The notes under the pieces are model-generated. The model saw only the letters and a program-made list of their open reading frames with translations. It did not search any database and was not told the DNA's origin. A stretch of DNA of 64,000 nt from Gemmatimonadota bacterium (GTDB lineage: Bacteria > Gemmatimonadota > Gemmatimonadetes > Longimicrobiales > Gaopeijiaceae): positions 1 to 64,000 of the forward strand of contig JAPPGZ010000071.1 in NCBI GenBank assembly GCA_028874905.1. The letters are read 5' to 3'. Below, piece by piece: positions 45,197 to 60,265 of the stretch; positions within the stretch are counted from its first letter, which is position 1; each line of letters begins with the position of its first letter. The position numbers and the translations under genes were made by a program.

Positions 45197-45337
45197 GACC
45201 AGGAGGTTGTTCTCACCGGTCTGACGAGACCCGTCCCTGTCCTGGTACTGGCGGTCTTACTGGGACTTAGCCTCCCCTCAGGGACCGACTCTGCGCGGAA
45301 AGCGTCGGAGTCGTTCCGGCCGGGGCCGGTCGCCGTA

Positions 45338-47680
45338 TTGTCTGCCTCCGCCGCATCTGCCTTTCCCGCCGCGGATATCGTCCAGCAGTACTGCGTTCGC
45401 TGCCACAACGAACGGCGCCTGCTCGGCAACATGTCGCTCGAAGACTTCGACGCGGCGAATCCGGTCGCCAATGCGCCGCTCGCCGAGAAGATGATCCGCA
45501 AGCTGCGCGCGGGCATGATGCCGCCACCTGGGGTCAGCCGGCCGCCGGACGACGAGGTTCTGGCGTTCGTGACCGGGATGGAAGAGACGATCGACGCGGC
45601 GGCTGCGCGGAACCCCAACCCGGGTACGCGCACCTTCCAGCGTCTCAATCGGGCCGAGTATGAGCGCGCCGTGCAGGACCTGCTGGGTCTGGAGATCGAT
45701 GCGTCGGCGTACCTGCCCGGCGAGACGGTGAGCGCGGGCTTCGACAACATAGCCGACGTGCAGAACCTGTCCGCAACGCTGCTCGAGGCCTATCTCACGG
45801 CAGCGAGCGAGGTGAGCCGACTCGCTCTGGGCGACGCCAACGCGACACCCGCCGAAGCGACGTACGAAGTGTCGCGCTACGCCGAACAGCGCCACCACGT
45901 TCCGGGCGCTCCGTTCGGCACCCGCGGCGGAATCTCCGTCGTCCACAACTTCGTCGCCGACGGCGAGTACTATTTCCGGCTGGCGTTCCAGCACGAGTCG
46001 ACCGGGAACTTCTTCGGGCAAACGGCACCCTTCGACGAGGAAGTCGAGGTATCGATCGATGGCGCCCGGGTTGCGCTGATTCCGCTGGACCGCTGGATGC
46101 ACCGGCAGGATCCGCGCGGGGTCGAGGTCGTGACCGATCCGATCAGGGTTACGGCGGGGCCGCACCGCGTGTCGGCCGCGTTCATCAAGGTTACGGAGGG
46201 GCCGGTCGAGGATCTGACTTCACCCCACGAGTGGTCCCTGGCCGACAAGAAGATCGGATACTCGTACGGGATCACGGGCGTTCCCCACCTTCGCGACCTG
46301 ACCATCGGCGGCCCATACAACGTCACGGGGGTCTCGCCGACGGCGGCCTGGCAGCGCGTCATGAGTTGCCTGCCCTCCACTCCCGCCGAGGAGCCGGCCT
46401 GTGCGCGCGAGATCATTGACAGACTGGGCACACGGGCTTTCCGGCGCCCGGTGACGGAGGCCGAGGCCGACGGCCTTATGGGCCTCTTCGCCGAAGGCAC
46501 GGCCGAGGGCGGGTTCGACATCGGGGTGCGGACGGCGCTCCAGGGCATTCTGGCGAGCCCGGACTTCGTGTTCCGCTTCGAGGAGCCGGCTCCGGGCAGC
46601 GTCGATGCCAACGGGATGTATCGTCTTGGCGACGGCGCCCTCGCGTCACGCCTGTCCTTCTTCCTGTGGGGACGTCTGCCCGACGAGGAGTTGGTAGCTG
46701 CCGCGGCCGCGGGCGACCTGTCGCGTCCGGAGGTTTTTGAGCATCAGGTCGAGCGCATGCTCCGCGATCCGCGTGCCGAGGCGCTCGGGACCCGGTTCGC
46801 GTCGCAGTGGCTGCGCCTCCAGGACCTGGATAAGGTCCACCCCGACGCATTGCGCTTCCCGGACTTCTACGAGCAGCTCGCCGAGGACATGCAGCGCGAG
46901 ACCGAGACGTTCTTCAACGCGCTCGTGCAGGAGGACGGGACCCTCGCGGATCTGCTTACGGCGGACTACTCATACATGAACGAGCGGTTGGCTCGGCATT
47001 ACGGGATTCCCGGCGTCGCTGGCGAACACTTCCGCCGCGTCGAGTACCTGAATCCACAGCGGCGCGGCGTTCTCGGGCACGGCAGCATCCTGACGCTTAC
47101 CTCGCACGCCAACCGGACTTCGCCCGTGCTCCGTGGGAAATGGGTAATGGAGGTGTTGCTCGGTACGCCGCCGCCGCCCCCCCCACCGGACGTCCCGGAA
47201 CTGGACGCTACCGCCGATGCGAGCGAGGGACGTTTCCTTACGGTGCGCGAGCGCCTCGAGGCCCACCGGGCCAACCCGACGTGCAATTCCTGCCACCGCT
47301 TCATCGACCCGATCGGGCTTGCGCTCGAGAACTTCGATGTCACCGGTGCCTGGCGGGTGCGTGACACCGGCTCGCCGGTCGAGACGCTCGGGGAGCTCTA
47401 CGACGGTACGCCGATCCATGGGCCCGACGATCTGCGCGCGGCGTTGCTGCGGCGCCCGGAGTCCCTGGTCCGCACCTTTGCCGAGAACCTGATGGCCTAC
47501 GCGCTTGGGCGCAGGATCGAGTACTACGACATGCCCGCGGTGCGGCAGGTGGCGCGTGCGGTGGCTGCGCAGGACTACCGCCTGTCGGCCTTCATCAGGG
47601 AAGTGGCGCGGAGCGACCCCTTCCGCATGGCGAAGTCCGCCGCCGTTGTCGAGGAGGCGATGGGCGGCGACCGCAACTGA
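45338..47680 (+). CDS. DUF1587/DUF1592/DUF1588/DUF1585 dihaem-type secreted protein, cassette copy A
   Basis: A member of the Planctomycete-type cytochrome-linked families, 780 residues from the TTG given. It has a CxxCH haem-type site near the N-terminus (YCVRCHNERR, C19/C22/H23) and NPNPGTRTFQRLNRAEYERAVQDLLGL (DUF1587). RLSFFLWGRLPDEEL and the long DUF1592 region follow. A second CxxCH lies in NPTCNSCHRFIDPIGLALENFD (DUF1588), and DUF1585 at the end has FAENLMAYALGRRIEYYD. The given start lacks a signal peptide. The same frame is open back past 45221, where an apparent signal peptide begins at a CTG codon, so the true protein is probably about 39 residues longer. It is followed 14 nt later by the DUF1552 gene. 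The biochemical role is unknown. Confidence 0.85.
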   Translation: MSASAASAFPAADIVQQYCVRCHNERRLLGNMSLEDFDAANPVANAPLAEKMIRKLRAGMMPPPGVSRPPDDEVLAFVTGMEETIDAAAARNPNPGTRTFQRLNRAEYERAVQDLLGLEIDASAYLPGETVSAGFDNIADVQNLSATLLEAYLTAASEVSRLALGDANATPAEATYEVSRYAEQRHHVPGAPFGTRGGISVVHNFVADGEYYFRLAFQHESTGNFFGQTAPFDEEVEVSIDGARVALIPLDRWMHRQDPRGVEVVTDPIRVTAGPHRVSAAFIKVTEGPVEDLTSPHEWSLADKKIGYSYGITGVPHLRDLTIGGPYNVTGVSPTAAWQRVMSCLPSTPAEEPACAREIIDRLGTRAFRRPVTEAEADGLMGLFAEGTAEGGFDIGVRTALQGILASPDFVFRFEEPAPGSVDANGMYRLGDGALASRLSFFLWGRLPDEELVAAAAAGDLSRPEVFEHQVERMLRDPRAEALGTRFASQWLRLQDLDKVHPDALRFPDFYEQLAEDMQRETETFFNALVQEDGTLADLLTADYSYMNERLARHYGIPGVAGEHFRRVEYLNPQRRGVLGHGSILTLTSHANRTSPVLRGKWVMEVLLGTPPPPPPPDVPELDATADASEGRFLTVRERLEAHRANPTCNSCHRFIDPIGLALENFDVTGAWRVRDTGSPVETLGELYDGTPIHGPDDLRAALLRRPESLVRTFAENLMAYALGRRIEYYDMPAVRQVARAVAAQDYRLSAFIREVARSDPFRMAKSAAVVEEAMGGDRN

Positions 47681-47694
47681 GGAGAGCGAACAAC

Positions 47695-49077
47695 ATGGAA
47701 TACATCACGGGAGCAGCGATCCCCCGCCGGACCTTTCTGAGGGGTGTGGGAGCCACGATCTCGTTGCCGTTCCTCGATGCCATGATACCCGCCGGCCGTG
47801 CGCTGGGGACCGCCGCTGACGGCCCGACGCGGCTGGTAGCGATCGAGATGGTGCACGGGGCGGCGGGGAGCAACGAGTGGGGCCGCGTACAGAACTACTG
47901 GTCTCCCGCCGAGACGGGCAGAGACTTCGACCTCACGCCGAGCGCCCTGAGTCCTCTCGAACCTTATCGGAAATACCTCACGATCGTCAGCGACACCGAC
48001 ATCGAGCCCGCCGAGGCCAAGAAGCCGAAGGAAATCGGCGGCGACCACTTCCGCTCCAGCGCCACCTTCCTCACACAGTCGCACCCACGCCAGACCGAGG
48101 GTTCCGACATCTTTGTCGGCACGTCCCTCGACCAGATGTTCGCGCAGCGCTTCGGCCAGGACACCCCGATCCCGTCCATGCAGCTCTGTATCGAGAACGT
48201 GGACCAGTCGGGCGGGTGCGCCTACGGCTATGCCTGCGTCTATACCGATACCATCAGCTGGGCATCTCCCACTGATCCGCTTCCGATGGTCAGGGATCCA
48301 CGGGTTGCCTTCGACCAGCTCTTCGGTGCCGGCGGCAGTCCCGAGGAGCGGGCGGCGCGCCGCCGGACCAACAAGAGCATCCTCGACTTCATTACCGGCA
48401 GGGTGTCGCACCTCAAGCGCACGCTGGGTCCGGCGGATCTCGTTCGCCTCGACCGCTATCTGGAGCATGTCCGGGAGTTGGAACGCCGAATCCAGCGCGT
48501 GGAAGTGCAGAACACGAGCGGCGAGAGCCGGGAGTTGCCCGAGGCCCCGGCGGGCGTGCCGGACGACTTCGAAGAGCACGTCAAGTTGATGTTCGACCTG
48601 CAGGCGCTGGCCTTCGCGTCCGACGTGACACGGGTGTTTTCCTTCAAGATGGGACGCGATTCGTCCGCGCGGGTCTTCCCGGACAGCGGCGTCGACAGAC
48701 CTTTCCATCCGGCATCGCACCACGGGGGTAACGAGGACAACATCACCGCTTTCTCCAGGATCAACCGGTACCACGTCGGCATGCTCCCGTACTTCCTGGG
48801 GCGGCTGGAAGACACGATGGAGGGGGATGCGCACCTCCTCGACAGGACGATGATCATCTACGGATCCCCGATGGGAGATCCCAACATCCACAACCACAAG
48901 CGCTGCCCGCTCTTCGTAGCCGGCGGGGCGAACGGACAACTTGACGGCAACCTCCACCTGCGCGCGGCCCCCGGGACCCCGATGGCCAACGTCATGCTGA
49001 GCCTGGCGCACAAGCTGGGGCTGGACGACATGAAGCGCTTCGGCAACAGCACAGGCGACTTTTCGCTGACGGTGTAG
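47695..49077 (+). CDS. DUF1552 protein with twin-arginine signal, cassette copy A
   Basis: A 460-residue DUF1552 protein. Its N-terminus (IPRRTFLRGVGATISLPFLDAM) is a twin-arginine signal, so it is probably exported folded. Typical internal blocks are LVAIEMVHGAAGSNEWG, EIGGDHFRSSATFLTQSHPR, CIENVDQSGGCAYGYACVYTDTISW and YGSPMGDPNIHNHKRCPLFVAGG. DUF1552 is distantly related to the DUF1501/alkaline-phosphatase superfamily; no activity is assigned. It always follows a DUF1592-type partner in such loci, as here. The second copy at 53459 is closely similar over its whole length. Confidence 0.88.
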   Translation: MEYITGAAIPRRTFLRGVGATISLPFLDAMIPAGRALGTAADGPTRLVAIEMVHGAAGSNEWGRVQNYWSPAETGRDFDLTPSALSPLEPYRKYLTIVSDTDIEPAEAKKPKEIGGDHFRSSATFLTQSHPRQTEGSDIFVGTSLDQMFAQRFGQDTPIPSMQLCIENVDQSGGCAYGYACVYTDTISWASPTDPLPMVRDPRVAFDQLFGAGGSPEERAARRRTNKSILDFITGRVSHLKRTLGPADLVRLDRYLEHVRELERRIQRVEVQNTSGESRELPEAPAGVPDDFEEHVKLMFDLQALAFASDVTRVFSFKMGRDSSARVFPDSGVDRPFHPASHHGGNEDNITAFSRINRYHVGMLPYFLGRLEDTMEGDAHLLDRTMIIYGSPMGDPNIHNHKRCPLFVAGGANGQLDGNLHLRAAPGTPMANVMLSLAHKLGLDDMKRFGNSTGDFSLTV

Positions 49078-49081
49078 GCGC

Positions 49082-50902
49082 ATGGTCATCCGCGTGAACG
49101 CCTGGCTGCCGCTGCTCCTTCTCACGGCCCTGGCGCCGTGGGTGACGGACGACGGTCGCGCGGTCGCCGGGTACTTGACGCCGCCGCCGGTGTTGGACCC
49201 GTTGACCGAGTCGCCGGTTGCCGACGCGGCCATGCGCGGCGATGCGCATGCTGTCAGGAGCCTGCTCGCCGACGGAGCGGATGTCAACGCTGCCCAGGGC
49301 GACGGGATGACCGCGCTGCATTGGTCGGCGCGCAACCGCGATCCGTCGCTCGCGGACATCCTGCTCGATGCGGGGGCCGACGTGCATGCAGGGACGCGCA
49401 TCGGCCACTACACCGCGCTCCACATGGCGGGGGAAGTCGGCGCGGGCGAGGTGGTCGAGTTGCTGCTGGACGCAGGCGCCGATCCCATGGCGCGGGTCGA
49501 CGGGGCGGGGCATCCGACCGCGCTCCACTTTGCGGCCGCGTCGGGTAGTGCCCGCGCAGTGGAGGCGCTGCTGGTTGCGGGTGCCGATGTGAACGCCACG
49601 GAGGAGTCCTGGGGGCAGACGCCCCTGATCTTCGCCGCATCGAAGGGGAGGACGGAGGTAGTCGCCGCACTGCTGGATGTCGGTGCCGACCCCGCGATCC
49701 ACACCCGGGTGATGGATGTAATGTCGCGTGCCGTGTACGACCGCATCGAGCGCGCCGAGCGCAACAGGCGAATCCGGGAGGGGCAGCCCTGGGGACCCGA
49801 GGTCGCGGCCGAGGTGCGCCGCCAGCACGAGGAGGAAAGCCGCCGCCGCGAACTGGCCGAGGCCGCATCGGCGGCCGAGGCCGAGACGCGCATGATCGAA
49901 GAGCCCGAGCCGCTGTCCTACGGCGAACTCGTGGGCGGCCACGGGGGTCTCACCGCGTTGTTGCACGCCGCTCGCGAGGGGCATGCCGAGACGGCGCTGG
50001 CGCTGATCGACGGTGGCGCGGATGTCAACCGCGTGAGCGCGGGCGACGGCACCAGCCCGGTGCTGATGGCTACCATCAACGGGCACTACGACCTGGCCAT
50101 TCGGTTCCTGGAGCGCGGCGCCGATCCCGTGATCGCCAGCCATGCGGGTGCGACCCCCCTCTTTGCCGCGATCAACACGCACTGGGCACCCAAGTCGCGC
50201 TATCCGCAGCAGCACATCTACATGCAGCAGGATCACACCTATCTGGAGGTCATGGAGAAGCTGCTGGCAGCGGGTGCCGACCCCAACATGCGCCTCACCA
50301 GGCACCTCTGGTTCATGTCCTACAACTTCGACCTGCTCCAGATCGACGCGAAGGGTGCGACACCGTTCTGGCGTGCAGCCTACGCCCTTGACGTGGAAGC
50401 CATGAAGCTGCTGGTGGCTTACGGCGCCGATCCCGCGATTCCAACGGAAAAGGTTCCATCGAGGCGTTACGGTCGCGGGGGAGACGACACGACCGATGCA
50501 TCCGGGCTGCCGCCCGTGCCCGTGGGCGGTCCCGCGGTGTACCCCATTCACGCGGCCGCGGGAGTCGGATACGGCCAGGGATTCGCGGGCAACGCACACC
50601 GTCATGTGCCCGACGCATGGGTGCCGGCCGTCCGCTACCTGGTCGAGGAACTCGGGGCCGACGTCAACGCGCGCGACCACGATGGATTCAGCCCCCTTCA
50701 TCACGCCGCCGCCCGTGGCGACAACGAACTGATCCTGTACCTGGTGGAGCAGGGGGCCGACGTCACCGTGGTCAGCAGGCGGGGACAGACGACGGTGGAT
50801 ATGGCCAACGGCCCGGTGCAACGGATCCAGCCGTTCCCGGAAACCATCGCTCTTCTGGAGAGCCTCGGTGCGGTGAACAACCTCAACTGCGTTTCCTGTT
50901 GA
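49082..50902 (+). CDS. secreted ankyrin-repeat protein ending in CVSC, cassette copy A
   Basis: A 606-residue protein with a signal peptide (about 1-30) and two blocks of ankyrin repeats, about 43-210 and 280-600. Repeat examples are GMTALHWSARNRDPSLADILLDAGADV and GFSPLHHAAARGDNELILYLVEQGADV. A charged helical linker (about 215-275) separates the blocks. A conserved non-repeat stretch, GGPAVYPIHAAAGVGYGQGFAGN, lies in the second block. The protein ends exactly in CVSC, a C-x-x-C at the C-terminus also seen in copy B. Ankyrin arrays bind proteins; here the likely partners are the exported DUF1592 and DUF1552 proteins. The ATG has no strong ribosome-binding site. Confidence 0.87.
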   Translation: MVIRVNAWLPLLLLTALAPWVTDDGRAVAGYLTPPPVLDPLTESPVADAAMRGDAHAVRSLLADGADVNAAQGDGMTALHWSARNRDPSLADILLDAGADVHAGTRIGHYTALHMAGEVGAGEVVELLLDAGADPMARVDGAGHPTALHFAAASGSARAVEALLVAGADVNATEESWGQTPLIFAASKGRTEVVAALLDVGADPAIHTRVMDVMSRAVYDRIERAERNRRIREGQPWGPEVAAEVRRQHEEESRRRELAEAASAAEAETRMIEEPEPLSYGELVGGHGGLTALLHAAREGHAETALALIDGGADVNRVSAGDGTSPVLMATINGHYDLAIRFLERGADPVIASHAGATPLFAAINTHWAPKSRYPQQHIYMQQDHTYLEVMEKLLAAGADPNMRLTRHLWFMSYNFDLLQIDAKGATPFWRAAYALDVEAMKLLVAYGADPAIPTEKVPSRRYGRGGDDTTDASGLPPVPVGGPAVYPIHAAAGVGYGQGFAGNAHRHVPDAWVPAVRYLVEELGADVNARDHDGFSPLHHAAARGDNELILYLVEQGADVTVVSRRGQTTVDMANGPVQRIQPFPETIALLESLGAVNNLNCVSC

Positions 50903-50909
50903 GGCGTCA

Positions 50910-53453
50910 ATGCTGAAGCACGCGGCCCCGGTGGCGGCGGCCGGCGTTTTTCTCGTCGGCCTCGGGGTCTCGCTTGCGTCCGCGCCCGACCGCGGCAATA
51001 CGGACTTCCCGGTGGCGTGGCAGCCGCTCCAGGCCGTCTCCGAGATCGCCGGGGCGACCGACGGCGGTGCCGTCAGCGACAACGAGGTAATCCGGCAGTA
51101 TTGCGTCCGCTGTCACAACGAACGGCGGCTGCTCGGGAACATGTCCCTGGAGGCCTTCGACGCGACCGACGCGCCCGCCAACGGTGAACTCGCGGAAAAG
51201 ATGATCCGCAAGCTGCGGGCGGGGCTGATGCCGCCTCCGGGGAATCGGCGTCCCGAGGAACCCGTCCTGACGGGGCTGGTCGAATCGCTGGAATCCCAGA
51301 TGGACCTTGCGGCAGCGGAGAACCCGAATCCCGGCCGGCGCACGTTCCAGCGTCTGAACCGCGCGGAGTACCAGGCCTCGATCCGAGATCTTCTCGACCT
51401 GCAGATCGACGCGGGTGCCTACCTCCCGCTCGATACCAAGAGCGCCAATTTCGACAACATCGCGGACGCACAGATTCTGTCGGCCACGCTCACCGATGGC
51501 TACCTGCGGGCGGCCGCGGAAATCAGCCGGCTGGCGATCGGCGACCCTCATATCACGCCGAGCGAGTCGACGTACCGGGTTTCTCGCTGGGACTCCCAGA
51601 GCGAGCGCGTAGCCGGCGCACCGTACGGCACCCGCGGTGGAGTGTCTGTCCTGCACAACTTCCCGGCGGACGGCCACTACGCCTTCCGCGTGTCATTCCA
51701 TCACGAGACGACCGGGGCGCTCGTCGGCAACGGCCGCAACGCCCTTCACACCGAGGACGGCGATCCGGAGCTGCTTGAGATCTCCGTCGACGGTGAACCG
51801 GTGGCGGTGCTGGAAGTCAACCGCTGGATGCACACCTCGGATCCGGACGGCGTGAACATCCGCTCCGAACGCGTTTTCGTGCGCGCGGGTCCGCGCCAGG
51901 TGTCGGCGGCTTTCATACGGCGCTCCGAAGGGCCGCTTCAGGATCTGATCTCGCCGCACGACTGGTCGCTGGCCAGTACCAGTATCGCCGGAAGCTACGG
52001 TTTCACCGTGCTACCGCACCTGCGCGACCTTGCGATCGGCGGGCCCTACGATCCACAGGGCGTATCCGACACGCCGAGCCGCCGGGCGGTGTTTGCGTGC
52101 CGACCCGGAGCTGGTGCCAACCCGGGGGCGGCCGACGCCTCGGCGCGAGGCTGTGCGCACGACATCGTCGCCCGCCTGGGCACCCGCGCGTACCGGCGTC
52201 CGTTGACGGAGGCGAATATGGCCGCGCTGATGGGGCTCTACGACCTCGGCGCGGAGGTCGAGGGCTTCGAGGGCGGTGTGCGCATAGCGCTGGAGGGGAT
52301 CCTCGCCAGCCCGCACTTCATCTTCCGGATCGAAGAGCCGACGGTGGCCGGAGCGGAGGGCTCCGGAACGGGTGGGCGCTCGGCGGGCGCCTATCGCATC
52401 GGCGACCACGATCTGGCCGCGCGGCTGTCCTTTTTCCTGTGGGGATCCGGGCCCGACGAGCAGTTGATGGCGGTGGCGCGCGAAGGCAGGCTGTCGGAGC
52501 GGACCGTGCTGGAAGGCCAGGTTCACCGGATGCTGCGCGACCCCCGTTCCGCAGCGCTCTCGACGCGCTTCGCCGGGCAGTGGCTGCGCCTCCAGGACCT
52601 GGAGAAGATCCAGCCCGACCCGCGCGTAAACCCGGACTTCGACGAGCCGCTCAAGCGCGCGATGCTGGAGGAGACCGAGACCTTCTTCGACAACCTGGTT
52701 CGCGAAGACGCGTCGGTCACGGACCTGTACGACGCCGATTACACCTTCGTGAACGAACGACTGGCCCGCCACTACGGCATCCCCGACGTGGCCGGCAACG
52801 GGTTCCAGCGCGTCCGCTACCTGAACGAGGAGCGCCGGGGCCTGCTGGGCCACGGCAGCATCCTCACGCTCACCTCGCACGCCGGCCGGACATCGCCGGT
52901 GCTCAGGGGCAAGTGGGTGATGGAAGTGTTCCTGGGCACGCCCCCTCCACCACCACCGCCCGACGTGCCCGAACTGGAAGAGGAGGCGGTTGGAGACGGC
53001 CGCTTCCTCACGGTGCGCGAGCGGCTGGAGATGCACGCCGCCAACCCGACGTGCAACTCCTGCCACCGCATGATCGACCCCATCGGCCTGGCCCTCGAGA
53101 ACTTCGACGTGACCGGCGCGTGGCGGATCAGGGACCAGGGCGTTCCGATCGACGCGGCCAGCGACTTCTACGATGGCACGCCCATTTCGACGCCCTCGGA
53201 GTTGCGTGCGGCGCTGCTGAAGCGGCCGGAACCGCTGCTGCGCACGTTCACCGAAAACCTCATGGCATATGCGCTCGGACGCCGTCTGGAGTATTATGAC
53301 ATGCCGGCCGTGCGCCGGATCACCCGGGCCGCGGCCGAAGAGGACTACCGGGTATCCGCGTTCATCGTTGGGGTGGCGACCAGCGACGCCTTCCTGTTGA
53401 AGGCCGCGCCCGTTGTGGTCGACGGCGAAGCGCCGAACGGAAACGGAGGCTGA
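50910..53453 (+). CDS. DUF1587/DUF1592/DUF1588/DUF1585 dihaem-type secreted protein, cassette copy B
   Basis: An 847-residue paralogue of the protein at 45338 with the same domain order. It has an intact signal peptide (about 1-25: MLKHAAPVAAAGVFLVGLGV) followed by CxxCH at C65/C68/H69 (YCVRCHNERR). The DUF1587 region reads NPNPGRRTFQRLNRAEYQASIRDLLDL, and the second CxxCH is in NPTCNSCHRMIDPIGLALENFD. FTENLMAYALGRRLEYYD lies near the end. Compared with copy A it has extra glycine- and serine-rich linkers around 480. It starts 7 nt after the ankyrin gene and ends 5 nt before the second DUF1552 gene, consistent with one continuous transcript. Confidence 0.9.
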   Translation: MLKHAAPVAAAGVFLVGLGVSLASAPDRGNTDFPVAWQPLQAVSEIAGATDGGAVSDNEVIRQYCVRCHNERRLLGNMSLEAFDATDAPANGELAEKMIRKLRAGLMPPPGNRRPEEPVLTGLVESLESQMDLAAAENPNPGRRTFQRLNRAEYQASIRDLLDLQIDAGAYLPLDTKSANFDNIADAQILSATLTDGYLRAAAEISRLAIGDPHITPSESTYRVSRWDSQSERVAGAPYGTRGGVSVLHNFPADGHYAFRVSFHHETTGALVGNGRNALHTEDGDPELLEISVDGEPVAVLEVNRWMHTSDPDGVNIRSERVFVRAGPRQVSAAFIRRSEGPLQDLISPHDWSLASTSIAGSYGFTVLPHLRDLAIGGPYDPQGVSDTPSRRAVFACRPGAGANPGAADASARGCAHDIVARLGTRAYRRPLTEANMAALMGLYDLGAEVEGFEGGVRIALEGILASPHFIFRIEEPTVAGAEGSGTGGRSAGAYRIGDHDLAARLSFFLWGSGPDEQLMAVAREGRLSERTVLEGQVHRMLRDPRSAALSTRFAGQWLRLQDLEKIQPDPRVNPDFDEPLKRAMLEETETFFDNLVREDASVTDLYDADYTFVNERLARHYGIPDVAGNGFQRVRYLNEERRGLLGHGSILTLTSHAGRTSPVLRGKWVMEVFLGTPPPPPPPDVPELEEEAVGDGRFLTVRERLEMHAANPTCNSCHRMIDPIGLALENFDVTGAWRIRDQGVPIDAASDFYDGTPISTPSELRAALLKRPEPLLRTFTENLMAYALGRRLEYYDMPAVRRITRAAAEEDYRVSAFIVGVATSDAFLLKAAPVVVDGEAPNGNGG

Positions 53454-53458
53454 CCAGG

Positions 53459-54853
53459 ATGCATCTGATCACCGGGCGGCACCTGCCACGCCGGACCTTC
53501 CTACGCGGTCTCGGCGCAAGTGTCGCGCTCCCGTTCCTGGACGCCATGGTCCCGGCCCGGGAGCGGTGGGCGGTCACGCGTGCGCGCACCGCGCTCGACC
53601 GCACCCGTCTCGTCGCGATCGAGATGGTGCACGGCTCGGCGGGCAGCAATGCGTGGGGCGCGACGCAGCACCTCTGGTCCCCCCCGGAGACGGGCCGCGG
53701 CTTCGACTTCGGGCCCAGCGTGCTGAGTTCGCTGGAACCCTACCGGGACTACCTCACGATCGTCAGCGACACCGACGTGGAGGGCGCGGAGGCCACGAAG
53801 CCCAAGGAGATTGGCGGCGACCACTTCCGGTCCAGCGCGACCTTCCTCACCCAGTCGCACCCCAAGCAGACCGAGAGCTCGGACGTCTGGGTCGGCACCT
53901 CGCTCGACCAGCTGTACGCCCAGCGCTTCGGCCAGGACACCCCCATCCCGTCCTTGCAGCTCTGCATCGAGAACGTGGATCAGGCTGGTGGGTGCGCGTA
54001 CGGATACGCCTGCGTCTACACCGACACCATCTCATGGGCGGCGCCCGACCAGCCGCTTCCCATGGTCAGGGACCCGCGGGTCGCCTTCGACCAGCTCTTC
54101 GGAGCCGGCGGCAGCCCCGAGGCCCGTGCGGCCCGGCGCAGGTCCAGCGCCAGCATTCTCGACTTCATCGTCGGCGAAGTGAACGCGCTGAAACGGGAGC
54201 TGGATCCGGTCGACGGACGCCGGGTGGACCGCTATCTACACGACATCCGTGAACTCGAACGGCGGATCGCCCGCGTGGTGGCCCGCAACGAGAGCGGCGA
54301 ACAGCGCGAACTGCCGGGCGCGCCCGCGGGAGTGCCCGATTCCTTCGACGAGCACGTCAAGCTGATGTTCGATCTGCAGGCGCTCGCTTTCCAGGCGGAC
54401 GTGACGGGCGTCTTCTCCTTCAAGATGGGGCGGGACGCATCCAGCCGAGTCTACCCGGAGAGCGGCGTGGAGAAGGGGTTCCACCCGTCGTCGCATCACG
54501 GCGGACGCCCCGACAACGTGCTGGAGTTCGCCGAGATCAACCGATACCATGTGGGACTGGTCCCGTACTTCCTCGACCGGCTCGCGAGCATCCAGGAGGG
54601 GGACGCCAGCCTGCTGGACAAGACGATGGTGCTCTACGGTTCGCCGATGGGCGACTCCAACGTGCACAACCACAAGCGCTGTCCGCTCTTCGTCGTCGGC
54701 GGGGCCAACGGCCGCATGGACGGGGACCTTCACCTGCGCGCGGCCCCCGGAACCCCGATGGCCAACGTCATGCTCAGCCTGATGCACAAGCTGGGCATGG
54801 ACGACGTGCAGAGCTTCGGCAACAGTACCGGCGCCTTCCCGCTGTCGGTGTGA
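53459..54853 (+). CDS. DUF1552 protein with twin-arginine signal, cassette copy B
   Basis: A 464-residue paralogue of the 47695 protein. The N-terminus LPRRTFLRGLGASVALPFLDAM is again twin-arginine type. Internal blocks EIGGDHFRSSATFLTQSHPK, CIENVDQAGGCAYGYACVYTDTISW and YGSPMGDSNVHNHKRCPLFVVGG are nearly identical to copy A. Divergence is concentrated after the signal (about 35-55) and in the region around 230-270. The stop is 11 nt before the ATG chosen for the next ankyrin gene. Confidence 0.88.
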   Translation: MHLITGRHLPRRTFLRGLGASVALPFLDAMVPARERWAVTRARTALDRTRLVAIEMVHGSAGSNAWGATQHLWSPPETGRGFDFGPSVLSSLEPYRDYLTIVSDTDVEGAEATKPKEIGGDHFRSSATFLTQSHPKQTESSDVWVGTSLDQLYAQRFGQDTPIPSLQLCIENVDQAGGCAYGYACVYTDTISWAAPDQPLPMVRDPRVAFDQLFGAGGSPEARAARRRSSASILDFIVGEVNALKRELDPVDGRRVDRYLHDIRELERRIARVVARNESGEQRELPGAPAGVPDSFDEHVKLMFDLQALAFQADVTGVFSFKMGRDASSRVYPESGVEKGFHPSSHHGGRPDNVLEFAEINRYHVGLVPYFLDRLASIQEGDASLLDKTMVLYGSPMGDSNVHNHKRCPLFVVGGANGRMDGDLHLRAAPGTPMANVMLSLMHKLGMDDVQSFGNSTGAFPLSV

Positions 54854-54864
54854 GGGAGGACGGC

Positions 54865-56718
54865 ATGAGGACCGTTGCGGGAAGGCTCGCGCCGCTCCTG
54901 CAGGGAGTTCTGCTTGCGTGGCTCCCCGCCTCGCCCGGCGGCATCCTGACGCCCGCCGCTTCGGCGCAAATGCCCGCCGAAGCCGCCTCGCGCATGGCGC
55001 TCGAATCCCCGGTGGCCGACGCGGCCATGCGGGACGACCTGGAGGCCGTGCGGGCCCTGCTTGCCGGGGGTGCGGACGTCGATGTCCCGCGTGGGGACGG
55101 CATGACCGGCCTCCACTGGGCGGCGCTGAACGGGAACGCGCAGATCGCGCAACTGCTCATCGGCGCGGGCGCGAGTCTCGATGCGGTCACCCGCCTGGGT
55201 GCCCACACGCCGCTGCACGTTGCCGGCAAGGAGGGTCACGGCGAGATCGTCGCGATCCTGGCGGACGCGGGTGCCGACGTGGCAGCGGTGACCGAAACGG
55301 GGGCTGCATCGCTGCACTTCGCCGCAGCTGCCGGGGACGTTCGCTCCGTCACGGCACTGCTCGATCACGGCGCGGCCGTCGACGCCACAGAGCCCGAGTG
55401 GGGACAGACCCCCCTCATGTTCGCCTCTGCGTTGGGCCGTACGAGGGCCGTGACGACGCTGCTCGAAGCTGGGGCCGACGCGACGATCACCGCGCGCGTG
55501 ATGGACCTCGTCGAGCGCGACATCATGGATCGCGCCTCGGAGCGGCGGCGGCGGACGGAGATCGCCGCGATGCGCGGGGGCACCGACGCGCAGAGCTACC
55601 CGGTCGAGTCGGGTGTGGCGGGCCGCACGACGCCGCAGGCCTCGGCTGCGCCGGTGACGTCACGCGAAGCCCAGGCCCGGGAGGCCGCGCAGGAGGCGCT
55701 CGAGGCGCGCCGCCAGACCGGCGAGCCCATTCCACTGAACTATGCGGACCTGGTCGGCAAGCACGGCGGCCTTTCCGCGATCCACCTGGCGGCGCGCGAA
55801 GGCCACACGGCCACGGTCACGGCGCTGCTGGACGGAGGCGTCGACATCGACCTTCCCAGCGCGGCCGACGGCACCACGCCGATGCTCATGGCGGCGATCA
55901 ACGGCTACTTCGACCTCGTCGCCGAGTTGCTGGCGCGGGGTGCCGACCCCGATCTGGCCAGCGACGCCGGGGCGACACCTCTCTACGCCGTGCTCAACAT
56001 GCACTGGGCTCCCAAGGCGCGGCACCCCCAGCCGCTTGAGCACGAGCAACAGGAGACGGGCTACCTGGAGTTGATGCGCGCCCTTCTGGCAGCCGGCGCG
56101 GACGTCAACGCCCGCCTCGAGCGCACGCTGTGGTTCACCACCTACAACCGGGATCTGCTCGGCGTGGACCGCACCGGCGCGACGGCGTTCTGGCGCGCCA
56201 CGCACGCGACCGACGTACCCGCGATGAAACTGCTCCTGGAGTACGGCGCGGACCCCGGCCTGCCCACCATCAAGGTCCCGCAGCGCAGCTTCGGTCCCCG
56301 CGACGATACCGATCACTCCGGGCTGCCTCCCGTTCCTATCGGAGGTCCCGCGGTCTACCCCATCCACGCGGCAGCGGGAGTCGGCTACGGCCAGGGCTTC
56401 GCCGGCAATTCCCACCGCCACGCCCCGGACGGCTGGATGCCCACCATGCGGTTTCTGGTCGAGGAACTGGGCGCCGACGTGAACGCCCGCGACCTCAACG
56501 GGTACACGCCAGTGCACCACGCGGCCGCCCGCGGCGACAACGAGATGATCCTGTACCTCGTCGGGAAGGGGGCAGACGTCACCGCCGTGGCCCGCAACGG
56601 ACGGACCACGGTCGACATGGCCAACGGTCCGGTGCAGCGGATCCAGCCGTTCGTCGAGACCGTGGCGCTGCTGGAACGCCTTGGGGCAAAGAACAACCAT
56701 CGCTGCGTGAGCTGTTAG
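54865..56718 (+). CDS. secreted ankyrin-repeat protein ending in CVSC, cassette copy B
   Basis: A 617-residue paralogue of the 49082 protein with a signal peptide (about 1-36, cleaved near ASAQ), two ankyrin blocks, a charged central linker, and the conserved GGPAVYPIHAAAGVGYGQGFAGN stretch. It also ends in CVSC. I chose ATG at 54865 because GAGGGAGGA lies directly upstream. The in-frame GTG at 54850 overlaps the DUF1552 stop and is less likely. It is the last gene of the duplicated cassette; a convergent gene follows. Confidence 0.87.
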   Translation: MRTVAGRLAPLLQGVLLAWLPASPGGILTPAASAQMPAEAASRMALESPVADAAMRDDLEAVRALLAGGADVDVPRGDGMTGLHWAALNGNAQIAQLLIGAGASLDAVTRLGAHTPLHVAGKEGHGEIVAILADAGADVAAVTETGAASLHFAAAAGDVRSVTALLDHGAAVDATEPEWGQTPLMFASALGRTRAVTTLLEAGADATITARVMDLVERDIMDRASERRRRTEIAAMRGGTDAQSYPVESGVAGRTTPQASAAPVTSREAQAREAAQEALEARRQTGEPIPLNYADLVGKHGGLSAIHLAAREGHTATVTALLDGGVDIDLPSAADGTTPMLMAAINGYFDLVAELLARGADPDLASDAGATPLYAVLNMHWAPKARHPQPLEHEQQETGYLELMRALLAAGADVNARLERTLWFTTYNRDLLGVDRTGATAFWRATHATDVPAMKLLLEYGADPGLPTIKVPQRSFGPRDDTDHSGLPPVPIGGPAVYPIHAAAGVGYGQGFAGNSHRHAPDGWMPTMRFLVEELGADVNARDLNGYTPVHHAAARGDNEMILYLVGKGADVTAVARNGRTTVDMANGPVQRIQPFVETVALLERLGAKNNHRCVSC

Positions 56719-56796: not shown

Positions 56797-57957
56797 CTAG
56801 CGCCGCTGATGATGCTCCTCGTAGTGCTTGCCCAGCCAGTCCTCGCCGTAGTCGTTGCCGGGGTCCCGCATGATGCTGTGCACGTGGTTGGCTGCGTCCC
56901 CGCCGACGCCCTCCTCGACGATGTACTCGATGAGCACGGAAGGGCCGTGCACCCGGTAGTAGTAGCGCGCTGACAGATCATCCACCGGTCCGATCCAGGC
57001 GAAATGCAGGGCGTCCAGCCCGTCCGCGCGGATTTTGTCCAGCTGCGCGTCGGCCGCACCATGGTCGGCATTGGCCGCGTACTCCTCGACCAGCTGCCAT
57101 AACAGCGCCCGCTGCGCCTCGTCGAGCGCGGAAGCGGCGATTCCGGAGAACTCGCTCAGGCTTCCCTTGCGCCCTGGGCCGGTGAGTACGTCACCCGGGA
57201 TCTCACCGCCGAGGACCGCAACCGACCGCTGCCCGTCGTCCAGCGTCTGCAGCAGCTGCCAGCCGCGCTCCCCCTCGTTGGCGAGCACTCGCCAGCCCGC
57301 TTCCAGCCCACTCTCGATCTCGTGTGGTTCGGCTCCCAGGAACAGGGGTGTGAAAGCCACCCGGTCGCCCGCGACGGTGAAGGTGGCCGCCAGGTGGTGA
57401 CCGTTGACGAGCCATCCCCAGGCCGGATCCCCGGGCTGGCCAAAGAACGAGATCCAGTAGTTGGCGGATGTCCAGCTTTCCAGCAGGCGCTCCGGGAGGC
57501 GTCGCTCACCACGCGCGACAGCCGCGGACGCGTCCTCGTGTAATACCTCATCCAAACGAATCACGCCCGCGATCTTCTGATACCCCTGGCTGCTGGTCGA
57601 CGCCCGCAGCAGGTTGTGGAACCGGCGCCTCTGCGGGTCGGCGAGATCACCGAACCTGACCCCCGCGCGCTCCACCATGCTCGCCGGCAGGTTGCTCCAG
57701 CGCGTGCGCTCCGAGTCGGCGTCGAAGGGGAATTCGGCGTCGGTCCGCTGTTGGGGTGAAAGGGCGTCGAGGAACTCGCGGGCGGCCTGGGCCATGCGCT
57801 CCGGCGAGGCTTCGGCCCCGGCGGCGGACAAGCTGTGAGGAGTCGTCTCGGCACTGTCCGGCTGCGCCCGGGTGGCGTCTCCGCGACAGCCGGCAAGCAC
57901 CGTGGCGGAGATGAGGGCGAGTATCGGCAGATGGTTGTCACGGGAATTGGCTTGCAT
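56797..57957 (-). CDS. DUF3500 domain lipoprotein
   Basis: A 386-residue DUF3500 protein. The N-terminus ILALISATVLAGCRGD is a lipoprotein signal with Cys24, so it is anchored in the periplasm. DUF3500 hallmarks are ANYWISFFGQPGDPAWGWLVNGHHLAATFTV, EGERGWQLLQTLDDGQRSVAVLGGE, and a C-terminal VHSIMRDPGNDYGEDWLGKHYEEHH. The function of the family is unknown. I chose ATG at 57957 because AAGGAGG lies about 11 nt upstream. The 58020 palindrome lies 63 bp upstream of the start. It is convergent to the cassette. Confidence 0.87.
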   Translation of the reverse strand: MQANSRDNHLPILALISATVLAGCRGDATRAQPDSAETTPHSLSAAGAEASPERMAQAAREFLDALSPQQRTDAEFPFDADSERTRWSNLPASMVERAGVRFGDLADPQRRRFHNLLRASTSSQGYQKIAGVIRLDEVLHEDASAAVARGERRLPERLLESWTSANYWISFFGQPGDPAWGWLVNGHHLAATFTVAGDRVAFTPLFLGAEPHEIESGLEAGWRVLANEGERGWQLLQTLDDGQRSVAVLGGEIPGDVLTGPGRKGSLSEFSGIAASALDEAQRALLWQLVEEYAANADHGAADAQLDKIRADGLDALHFAWIGPVDDLSARYYYRVHGPSVLIEYIVEEGVGGDAANHVHSIMRDPGNDYGEDWLGKHYEEHHQRR

Positions 57958-58019
57958 TGCGCCGTCGGCCTCCTTCGGGTCCGGTCTCCTGGGTTGCATT
58001 GTCCATTCGGGCGCGCCAA

Positions 58020-58043
58020 ATGCTAAACATTCTCGTTTAGTAT
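58020..58043 (+). promoter_or_regulatory. palindromic operator, copy 1 (DUF3500/dimethylformamidase-like promoter region)
   Basis: ATGCTAAAC (58020-58028) and GTTTAGTAT (58035-58043) are 9-nt arms that pair with one mismatch around a 6-nt spacer. It sits in the 169-bp gap between divergent genes, so one protein could control both. Over 26 nt it agrees at 22 positions with the second copy at 63215. TTGACG begins at its 3' end (58043-58048) and might be a -35 box towards the plus-strand gene. It is AT-rich in a GC-rich setting. Confidence 0.6.
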
Positions 58044-58126
58044 TGACGACTCGGGCTCCGGTCGGCAATCTCCCTGCGACCGGCCGACGATCCCGGTGCC
58101 AAATGTAGCGACGAGGAGGCCTCCCG

Positions 58127-60265
58127 TTGATCCGGCAGCGCTTGCGCACCTGTTTTTTGCCAGCCATCAGCACCGCCGTGCTGCCGCTTGCCGGGAGCTG
58201 TGGATTGCCGGATCTGGCGGTCGCGGACCCCTGTGCCAGGCCGGTCAATGAGATTGTCGCCGAGAACTGTCTTGGCGGGCACCCGGCGACCGAATGGGAC
58301 ATCAACGGATACGGCGATCCGAGCATTCAGGGTTTCGGTACCGAGATCGCGATCGCACAGGGCGAGTCGATCGACTTCAAGGTCGACACGGACTCGGAAG
58401 ACTACCGGATCGACATCTACCGCATGGGCTACTACGGCGGGATGGGGGCGCGGAGAGTGGACTCGATCGAGCCATCGACCGCCCTTCCGCAAATCCAGCC
58501 CGAGTGCCTGCGCGGGGCGATCCCGGTGCTGGCCGAGGGGGGCGGCCTCGACACTTGGCCGGCGCCACTCGTGGACTGCGGCAACTGGGCGGTCTCGGCA
58601 TCCTGGCGGGCGCCGGAGGGCGCGACCTCGGGGATCTACTTTGCGCGCCTGGTGCGCGAGGACCCGGTCGAGGGGTGGGTCAAGAACGACCAGTTCGGAC
58701 CCTCGCCGCTGCCGCCGACGGGGCGGGATTCCCTGTGGGAGGCCGACGGCTTCCGTGCGGTCATGCGAAACGCGCTGCGTGAGCCTCGGGCGAGTCACAT
58801 CTACTTCGTCGTGCGGGACGACGACGGCGCGTCGGATCTGCTGTTTCAGACGTCGGATCTGACCTGGCAGGCGTACAACCGGTATGGCGGCCACAGCGTA
58901 TACGGTCGGCTCAACCCGGAGCGGCTGCGTCTGCACGGCGGCGAACCGCGCGCACCCAAGGTCAGCTACAACCGGCCCTTCGAGACCCGGCACTACCGCG
59001 CGGTCAACATGCCCTTCAACTCCGAGTACCCGATGGTGCGCTGGCTGGAGCGGAACGGCTACGACGTCAGCTATTCGTCCGGGGTGGATACCGACCGGCG
59101 CGGGGAGGAGTTGCTGGAACACAGGGTCTTCCTGTCGGTCGGGCATGACGAGTACTGGACGGGCCGGCAGCGCCGCAATGTGGAGGCCGCACGCGCGGCC
59201 GGGGTGCACCTCGCCTTCTTCAGCTCCAACGAGGTGTACTGGAAGGTGCGCTGGGAGACGAGCATCGACGGCTCGGGCCAGCCGTACCGTACGCTGGTGA
59301 CGTACAAGGACTCGCAGGATCATCGGAGGCTGGACCCTGTGGAGTGGACGGGCGAGTTCCGCGACCACCGGTCGATCAACGCCGAGGGTCCATGGCCCGA
59401 GAACGCGCTCACCGGGACGCTCTTCACGGTGAACGCTTGGCGAAACGACCCGATCATCGTGGACGCGGAATTTGCGGGGCTGCGCTTCTGGAGGAACACG
59501 CAGGTGGCGCGACTGCGGCCCGGCGAGCGCTACGTGTCGATCAAGGGGATCCTGGGGCACGAATGGGACTCGGACATCGACAACGGGTTCCGGCCCCCCG
59601 GGCTGTTCCGTGTGGCGGCGAGCACCTTCGACAACGTGCTGTACTGCGTGCATCCGGGGCGGGGGTGCGAGACGGCCAGTGCCACGCACCACGCTGTCAT
59701 GTACCGTCACGAGAGCGGGGCGCTGGTGTTCGGCGCGGGGACGCTGCAGTGGTCGTGGGGGCTCGATGCGCACCACGACACCGAGACCGGCGTGCCGCCC
59801 GAGAGGCAGAACGGCAGCGACACGCGGGTGGGCGTGGACCCCCACGGGCCGGACCGGGTGCTGCAGCAGGCGACGGTGAACCTGTTTGCGGACATGGGGG
59901 TGCAGCCCGCCACGCTGGAGGAGGGGCTGGTGGCCGCGGAGGCTTCCGGGGACGACGAGGCGCCGATGTCGTCAGTCGACACGGTTTCGCTCGTGAGAGG
60001 CGAGGGCACCGTGACCACCTTCGTGACCGGATCTGCGTCGGACGGTGGCGGTGGCGTGGTCGCGGCCGTCGAGGTCTCGGTGGACGGCGGAGCAACGTGG
60101 CACCCGGCACGCGGTCGGGAGAAGTGGCGCTATTCCTGGCAGCCCGATGTGGCGACTACGGAGGTCTCGATCAGGGTCCGGGCGGTGGACGACAGTGGAA
60201 ATCTGGAGGTGCCGGCGGAGGGCCTGATGGTTCGAGTCGGTGCAAGTGCACCAGATTCGCCGTAG
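58127..60265 (+). CDS. secreted N,N-dimethylformamidase beta-subunit-like protein
   Basis: A 712-residue protein with a signal-type N-terminus (about 1-33). Its main domain (about 50-580) resembles the large (beta) subunit of N,N-dimethylformamidase. Supporting segments are YRIDIYRMGYYGGMGARRV, SGIYFARLV, DLTWQAYNRYGG, VSYNRPFE, FLSVGHDEYWTG and AGVHLAFFSSNEVYWKVRWE. The C-terminus (about 615-712) looks like an Ig-like/SoxC-dimerisation module (VEVSVDGGATWHPARG). Family members vary in substrate, so formamide hydrolysis is only a suggestion. I chose TTG at 58127 because GAGGAGG lies 7 nt upstream. It is divergent from DUF3500 across the palindrome. Confidence 0.82.
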   Translation: MIRQRLRTCFLPAISTAVLPLAGSCGLPDLAVADPCARPVNEIVAENCLGGHPATEWDINGYGDPSIQGFGTEIAIAQGESIDFKVDTDSEDYRIDIYRMGYYGGMGARRVDSIEPSTALPQIQPECLRGAIPVLAEGGGLDTWPAPLVDCGNWAVSASWRAPEGATSGIYFARLVREDPVEGWVKNDQFGPSPLPPTGRDSLWEADGFRAVMRNALREPRASHIYFVVRDDDGASDLLFQTSDLTWQAYNRYGGHSVYGRLNPERLRLHGGEPRAPKVSYNRPFETRHYRAVNMPFNSEYPMVRWLERNGYDVSYSSGVDTDRRGEELLEHRVFLSVGHDEYWTGRQRRNVEAARAAGVHLAFFSSNEVYWKVRWETSIDGSGQPYRTLVTYKDSQDHRRLDPVEWTGEFRDHRSINAEGPWPENALTGTLFTVNAWRNDPIIVDAEFAGLRFWRNTQVARLRPGERYVSIKGILGHEWDSDIDNGFRPPGLFRVAASTFDNVLYCVHPGRGCETASATHHAVMYRHESGALVFGAGTLQWSWGLDAHHDTETGVPPERQNGSDTRVGVDPHGPDRVLQQATVNLFADMGVQPATLEEGLVAAEASGDDEAPMSSVDTVSLVRGEGTVTTFVTGSASDGGGGVVAAVEVSVDGGATWHPARGREKWRYSWQPDVATTEVSIRVRAVDDSGNLEVPAEGLMVRVGASAPDSP

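Follow-up and report, generated by a model that had tools for sequence, protein, structure and literature searches.

Two head-to-tail copies of a conserved three-gene set, A-B-C, occupy positions 45221 to 56718 of a 64,000-nucleotide stretch of DNA from a Gemmatimonadota bacterium (GenBank assembly GCA_028874905.1, contig JAPPGZ010000071.1, positions 1 to 64,000), hereafter the window. A encodes a PSCyt3/PSD (DUF1592-type) protein predicted to carry two haems, B a DUF1552 (HXXSHH) protein, and C an ankyrin-repeat protein, all with putative export signals. We conclude with high confidence that A-B-C is a real, conserved exported three-gene module. The A-B pair is already known, without an assigned function, and its ankyrin partner was not found in the literature; no paper retrieved describes DUF1592, DUF1552, and an ankyrin protein together, in a search whose coverage left out most subscription journals and preprints. 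PSCyt/PSD and DUF1552 proteins, which reach high numbers in some genomes (39 DUF1552 genes in a single Vicinamibacterales genome), are given no function in the papers found, and the clear chemical signature of their constant third partner offers a handle for biochemistry.

Conservation of the A-B-C triad

We searched a C alignment against 84,980 species genomes, which gave at least 590 stretches, at least 582 of them true relatives, and kept the best 80 (75 loci, numbered with the prefix L). These loci are mostly labeled Gemmatimonadota, Longimicrobiales, or Acidobacteriota/Vicinamibacterales; L028, L043, L057, L078, and L079, labeled Gammaproteobacteria or Euryarchaeota, are probably misassigned bins. 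In the window, its own genome, and these loci, 101 C genes extend to the model end; 94 of them are preceded by both A and B, four by B only (near a contig start), one by A only (L064), and two by neither (L048, which is contig-cut, and L087). Incomplete arrangements can be seen in L064 (9158–13743, A-C without B) and L076 (2098–5977, A-B without C).

Because these loci had been chosen by C similarity, whole genomes were surveyed as well. A survey of 61 genomes from the phylum detected C in 22 (E ≤ 1e-60), and the identical 22 have DUF1552 (E ≤ 1e-20; Fisher p = 4.5e-17, kinship ignored). The next gene downstream is C for 84 of 90 DUF1552 matches, and B lies upstream of 84 of the 87 C genes detected, a count that may miss copies because the first pass scored at most 20 C candidates per genome; triad-bearing genomes have 1 to 12 C genes. 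The six B genes without C comprise four that apparently belong to a divergent seventh type described below, one with a different ankyrin gene adjacent (G051, L107), and one fragment (G045:C70). DUF1552 is found in none of 14 well-known control genomes. The central expectation of the sequence-only reading, an earlier interpretation of the window made without database searches, was that the ankyrin gene is kept beside DUF1592/DUF1552 elsewhere, and the 94 of 101 C genes and 84 of 90 DUF1552 genes bear it out.

The source genome (4.05 Mb, 111 contigs, 94.8% complete) carries six copies of C and seven each of A and B, which make up six full triads and a divergent seventh A-B pair. The six copies share 52 to 60% (A), 57 to 75% (B), and 46 to 58% (C) identity in multiple alignments. 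The tandem noted in the earlier reading therefore stands as observed and falls as a lone pair, since it accounts for two of six full triads. The seventh A-B pair (C59:65225–68978) has other ankyrin genes downstream, as seen for the seventh-type B in L012 and L108, the two of the four that were inspected. The corresponding region of the source genome (G000 C59:65225–71893, L012), just past the window, contains the A-B pair, an NHL-repeat protein, and the other ankyrins, and L108 is arranged alike for A, B, and the ankyrins. The triad on C17 adjoins a TonB receptor and then a protein that is SusD-like by eye and has no Pfam match (L014, 11504–16603).

Trees of the three proteins, built from 77 nonredundant complete triads out of 83 and compared at splits with support ≥0.9, largely agree. 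The A and C trees have 39 splits in common (of 52 and 48) with one conflict, the B and C trees 31 (of 42 and 48) with three, and the A and B trees 30 (of 52 and 42) with nine; Mantel r is 0.86 to 0.88 for A, B, and C versus a permutation maximum of 0.17. This agreement indicates that the three genes mostly move and duplicate together. No conserved fourth gene emerged among 99 flanking proteins (272 collected minus close look-alikes, with 26 of the 125 listed dropped by eye), a set in which a partner confined to close relatives would escape. The 58 B representatives separate into two clades, triad-type B versus 15 others, with a split support of 1.0, and the A tree mirrors this division with one exception, the second A of L090, which groups with the other type. 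Among the closest known systems is the PSCyt3/PSD and DUF1552 pair of Planctomycetes and Verrucomicrobia, with which the triad has its domain set (DUF1587-1595-1592-1588-1585) in common and from which it differs in having an exported ankyrin gene fixed as a third member and a B in a separate clade. According to one passage of PMC5615132, PSCyt3 genes usually adjoin a single family of unknown genes, with no known function; that passage leaves the adjoining family unnamed, and DUF1552 occurs in the paper.

Predicted A, B, and C proteins and their possible function

A1 (45221–47680, start codon uncertain) and A2 (50910–53453) harbor PSD3/DUF1587, PSD5/DUF1595, PSD4/DUF1592, PSCyt3/DUF1588, and PSD2/DUF1585 in this order, all above the Pfam curated cut-offs. 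Alignment places the first haem motif, CVRCH, at 45392–45406 in A1 and 51102–51116 in A2 and the second, CNSCH, at 47282–47296 and 53052–53066, respectively. All 65 A representatives conserve both CxxCH motifs, and it is from these two motifs only that covalent haem attachment is predicted. In the AlphaFold2 (AF2) model of A2 (predicted local distance difference test score 82.3, predicted template modeling score 0.84), residues 213 to 383 (51546–52058) adopt a predicted β-sandwich that is possibly like carbohydrate-binding modules (CBMs) of families 6, 35, and 36. No credible solved relative of A or B was detected by sequence, the best for A being a designed filament (E = 0.0053).

B1 (47695–49077, Pfam E = 3.9e-85) and B2 (53459–54853, E = 2.6e-79) score above the PF07586 cut-off and contain the HxxSHH motif, which spans H338 to H343 in B1 (48706–48723) and aligns to 54482–54499 in B2; H338, S341, and H342 are found in 58 of 58 B representatives and H343 in 98%. 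The export calls come from visual inspection of the N termini, which show a hydrophobic segment and, in B, the sequence RRTFLRG. The twin arginine (R11-R12 in B1, 47725–47730) is invariant in 58 of 58 representatives and points to twin-arginine translocation (Tat); the Pfam TAT_signal family matches B2 below threshold (E = 0.088) and is not listed for B1. In the AF2 model of B1, the protein has an alkaline-phosphatase-superfamily fold, and a VIA-align structure comparison gives sulfatases and nucleotide pyrophosphatases/phosphodiesterases (NPPs) as the best matches. B differs from that superfamily by its HxxSHH motif, and no relation was detected at the sequence level, where hhalign against one sulfatase only (L117) returned E = 0.05 over 39 columns.

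C1 (49082–50902) and C2 (54850–56718, starting at GTG 54850 or ATG 54865), the conserved partners of A and B, are putatively exported ankyrin arrays, with best Pfam E values of about 1e-54 and 3e-53, respectively. Both terminate in CVSC (50888–50899 and 56704–56715). Of the 101 C proteins of the locus set, which is biased toward close relatives, 99 have a CxxC at the C terminus or within three residues of it, with Cys last in 85. The tail CxxC is present in 52 of 54 C representatives, all 52 of which conserve Gly at −7 and Asn at −4, and it provides the only cysteines in 34 (in the aligned part, from which the signal region is partly left out). In the 61-genome survey, the match stops short of the model end in 16 of 87 C genes (hand count), and the tail is present in only one of seven further regions fetched for a short C match or a missing B; a recurring C of the C38:30680 type has a longer C-terminal stretch (...SCPGAG...). 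Searches of NCBIfam gave nothing beyond sub-cut-off ankyrin matches to unrelated proteins, and no relatives of C were found on plasmids at E = 1e-40.

The reading that we tentatively favor, and to which we give slightly less than an even chance, is an exported glycan-directed redox enzyme with an ankyrin subunit that scaffolds it or loads its haem. Each ABC set would constitute one self-contained exported module. In it, A, as a predicted two-haem c-type cytochrome with a possibly carbohydrate-binding domain, would bind the substrate and transfer electrons, and B, which would be translocated in folded form via Tat, would use its predicted alkaline-phosphatase/sulfatase fold to form a catalytic site around the invariant HxxSHH. 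C, a putatively exported protein in fixed pairing with both, would either tether A to B or assist in loading haem or metal, with the terminal CxxC as its reactive part. The copies in a genome may each serve a different substrate, and this would account for the tandem sets kept side by side and for the 1 to 12 C genes per triad-bearing genome. The analysis shows gene content and order, co-occurrence, agreement of the trees, selection, motifs, and predicted folds; export, haem attachment, complex formation, redox chemistry, the glycan substrate, and the role of C are inferred. The sequence-only reading is thus partly supported, its periplasmic complex with the ankyrin protein as scaffold being a proposal of the same kind.

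We regard it as rather unlikely that C serves as a maturation factor and forms no part of the finished enzyme, with its terminal dithiol and ankyrin groove delivering haem to the CxxCH motifs of A or keeping them reduced. C does nearly always adjoin genes for a two-CxxCH protein, and the terminal CxxC is often its sole cysteine pair. In addition, the excerpt of PMC10294975 concerned describes ankyrin proteins linked to a haem enzyme, AnkB with KatB in Pseudomonas aeruginosa and Cj1386 with KatA, as catalase-adjacent proteins proposed to promote activity, haem binding, or proper conformation. However, almost every B is paired with a C of its own (84 of 90), whereas a general factor could be shared; C trees match A trees; the tail is missing in some C proteins; and other A-B pairs may lack any ankyrin. 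The AnkB-type proteins moreover lie beside catalase, whereas C lies beside DUF1592/DUF1552, is about 600 residues long, and mostly ends in CxxC; no catalase was found beside C among the 25 of 80 families listed for the 99 flanking proteins.

Nor do we think it likely that the triad is a hydrolytic module, with B a sulfatase- or phosphodiesterase-like esterase, A a carbohydrate-binding anchor, and the haems serving sensing or structure. The B-model matches to sulfatases and NPPs and the CBM-like domain of A fit such a module, as do PSCyt genes that lie near sulfatase genes and carry CBMs in the relevant part of PMC5615132. The cytochrome genes that follow A and B in Sphingobium (see below) argue against it. 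The usual metal motif of the superfamily contains Asp, in place of which B would have HxxSHH, and we count this against hydrolysis as well.

DUF1552 genes with other ankyrins and on plasmids

The genome of L085 (G061, Vicinamibacterales) encodes 39 DUF1552 genes and at least 38 ankyrin genes (105 matches, with the best 150 of 201 candidates scored). Counting C, an ankyrin gene lies within 6 kb of 31 of the 39 DUF1552 genes and within 3 kb of 19; conversely, 30 of the 38 ankyrin genes have a DUF1552 gene no more than 6 kb away, compared with 3 on average when positions are shifted at random (maximum 32, presumably from shifts near zero). Among 18 G061 regions, three contain the C family (L099–L101), ten have shorter ankyrins upstream, downstream, or divergent, and five have no ankyrin (L098, L102, L103, L104, and L109). 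None of the shorter G061 ankyrins has a CxxC end; in L105, a single CxxC lies about 28 residues short of the end.

DUF1552 also occurs in 15 plasmid records (12 Sphingobium, two Novosphingobium, and one Planctomyces). In Novosphingobium KACC 22771, A and B are followed by an ankyrin open reading frame (ORF) (Ank_2, E = 7e-49) that overlaps the end of B; this A-B-ankyrin order on the megaplasmid (L112, 6407–11605) is absent from the gene table of the record. On two Sphingobium plasmids, genes for cytochrome c or c′ and cytochrome b come after A and B, and these DUF1592-DUF1552-cytochrome c/c′-cytochrome b clusters (L113, 10370–14516; L114, 10307–14497) have a TonB receptor and catabolic genes in their vicinity. 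They resemble the triad in having homologous A (shorter, with upstream genes that have no Pfam match) and B, and they differ in having cytochrome genes in place of the ankyrin and a B that is about 25% identical. The portion of PMC10653915 on tomatine in Sphingobium mentions neither cytochromes nor DUF proteins. In Planctomyces SH-PL62, DUF1592 and DUF1552 stand side by side, with neither an ankyrin nor a cytochrome annotated.

Luteitaleia is an older name of the class that contains Vicinamibacterales, and some of the closest metagenome-assembled genomes (MAGs) are, judging from their bin names, presumably sponge-derived. This would suit another explanation, that sponge symbionts use the ankyrins as eukaryote-like effectors and that their location by A and B is incidental. 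The pertinent section of PMC8163846 lists the overlapping lineages Gemmatimonadota and Luteitaleia as ankyrin-rich, with ankyrin genes at 0.25% in sponge versus 0.09% in seawater Gemmatimonadota MAGs and at 0.55% in Luteitaleia, and reads the repeats as host-association factors; it also states that few lineages encode secretion systems. We consider this explanation very improbable for C, which shares ankyrin repeats with those proteins yet is tied to an exported haem-protein cassette in strict pairing with DUF1552. C accounts for 20 of the 29 ankyrin genes in five triad genomes, and four more lie ≤6 kb from the seventh A-B locus (hand count), which leaves five, three of them in G018; three genomes without triads have 0, 0, and 2 ankyrin genes (hand count). 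The proximity of 30 of the 38 G061 ankyrin genes to DUF1552 points the same way. The same triads are not confined to host-associated bacteria, as they occur in bacterium HR33 and in MAGs that are groundwater-derived by title (L073, L086, L088, and L089). The cassette therefore competes as an explanation for ankyrin richness and may provide a nonhost one in some sponge-symbiont lineages, an alternative to that section of PMC8163846, which takes the numbers of ankyrins in sponge-associated Gemmatimonadota and Luteitaleia as signs of host manipulation. A wider proposal, which we regard as possible but doubtful, is that the triad represents an undescribed class of exported multisubunit glycan redox enzymes, in which B is the catalytic subunit with a sulfatase fold, A the two-haem subunit with a CBM, and the C dithiol acts directly in haem, metal, or electron handling; that exported ankyrins are a general third component in Gemmatimonadota, Acidobacteriota, and some Alphaproteobacteria; and that several sponge-symbiont lineages owe their wealth of ankyrins to carbohydrate metabolism, not host manipulation.

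The tandem copies in the window

The ORF list of the window shows six intact, tightly packed genes in the order A-B-C-A-B-C on the forward strand. Intergenic gaps are 14, 4, 7, and 5 nt, and B2 and C2 overlap by 4 nt if C2 starts at GTG 54850 or are separated by 11 nt if it starts at ATG 54865; the two direct copies in the same order are as first described. Copies 1 and 2 share 62% (A), 75% (B), and 59% (C) amino acid identity, and the tandem pair is thus old. The ratios of nonsynonymous to synonymous substitution rates (dN/dS; NG86 method, versus the relative locus L017) are 0.08, 0.04, and 0.15 for A, B, and C of copy 1 and 0.15, 0.05, and 0.13 for those of copy 2. All six genes are under purifying selection, and both copies are therefore kept by selection. 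In 13 loci with a C that is 79 to 87% identical to C1 (L017–L026, L033, L034, and L050), all show a second triad or its start at the contig end. An A-B-C-A string is found in 26 of the 75 loci (in L066, the second A is ~8.5 kb off) and in none of the five other loci of the source genome; from the 26 loci and the 13 close relatives, it follows that tandem sets recur. A recent or decaying duplication is ruled out by the dN/dS values of 0.04 to 0.15 and the tandem kept in close relatives, in line with the earlier description of the copies as divergent versions and not decay products, yet the start codon of A1 is doubtful.

Upstream of the A1 signal peptide there is no ATG, GTG, or TTG; the codon at 45221 is CTG, with a possible ribosome-binding site, AGGAGG (45201–45206), read in the sequence 14 nt 5′ of it. 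The ORF caller places the A1 start at TTG 45338, with which the signal peptide would be lost. Either A1 uses a noncanonical start, or translation of copy 1 is impaired. By eye, the codon at this position is CTG in the window and in L017 and CCG in L020, whereas L018, L033, and L034 have ATG there.

Directly after the cassette lie genes for a DUF3500 protein (56797–58323, reverse strand) and an N,N-dimethylformamidase β-like protein (58127–60262, forward strand). These two ORF calls overlap, and one of the starts is therefore probably placed too far upstream.
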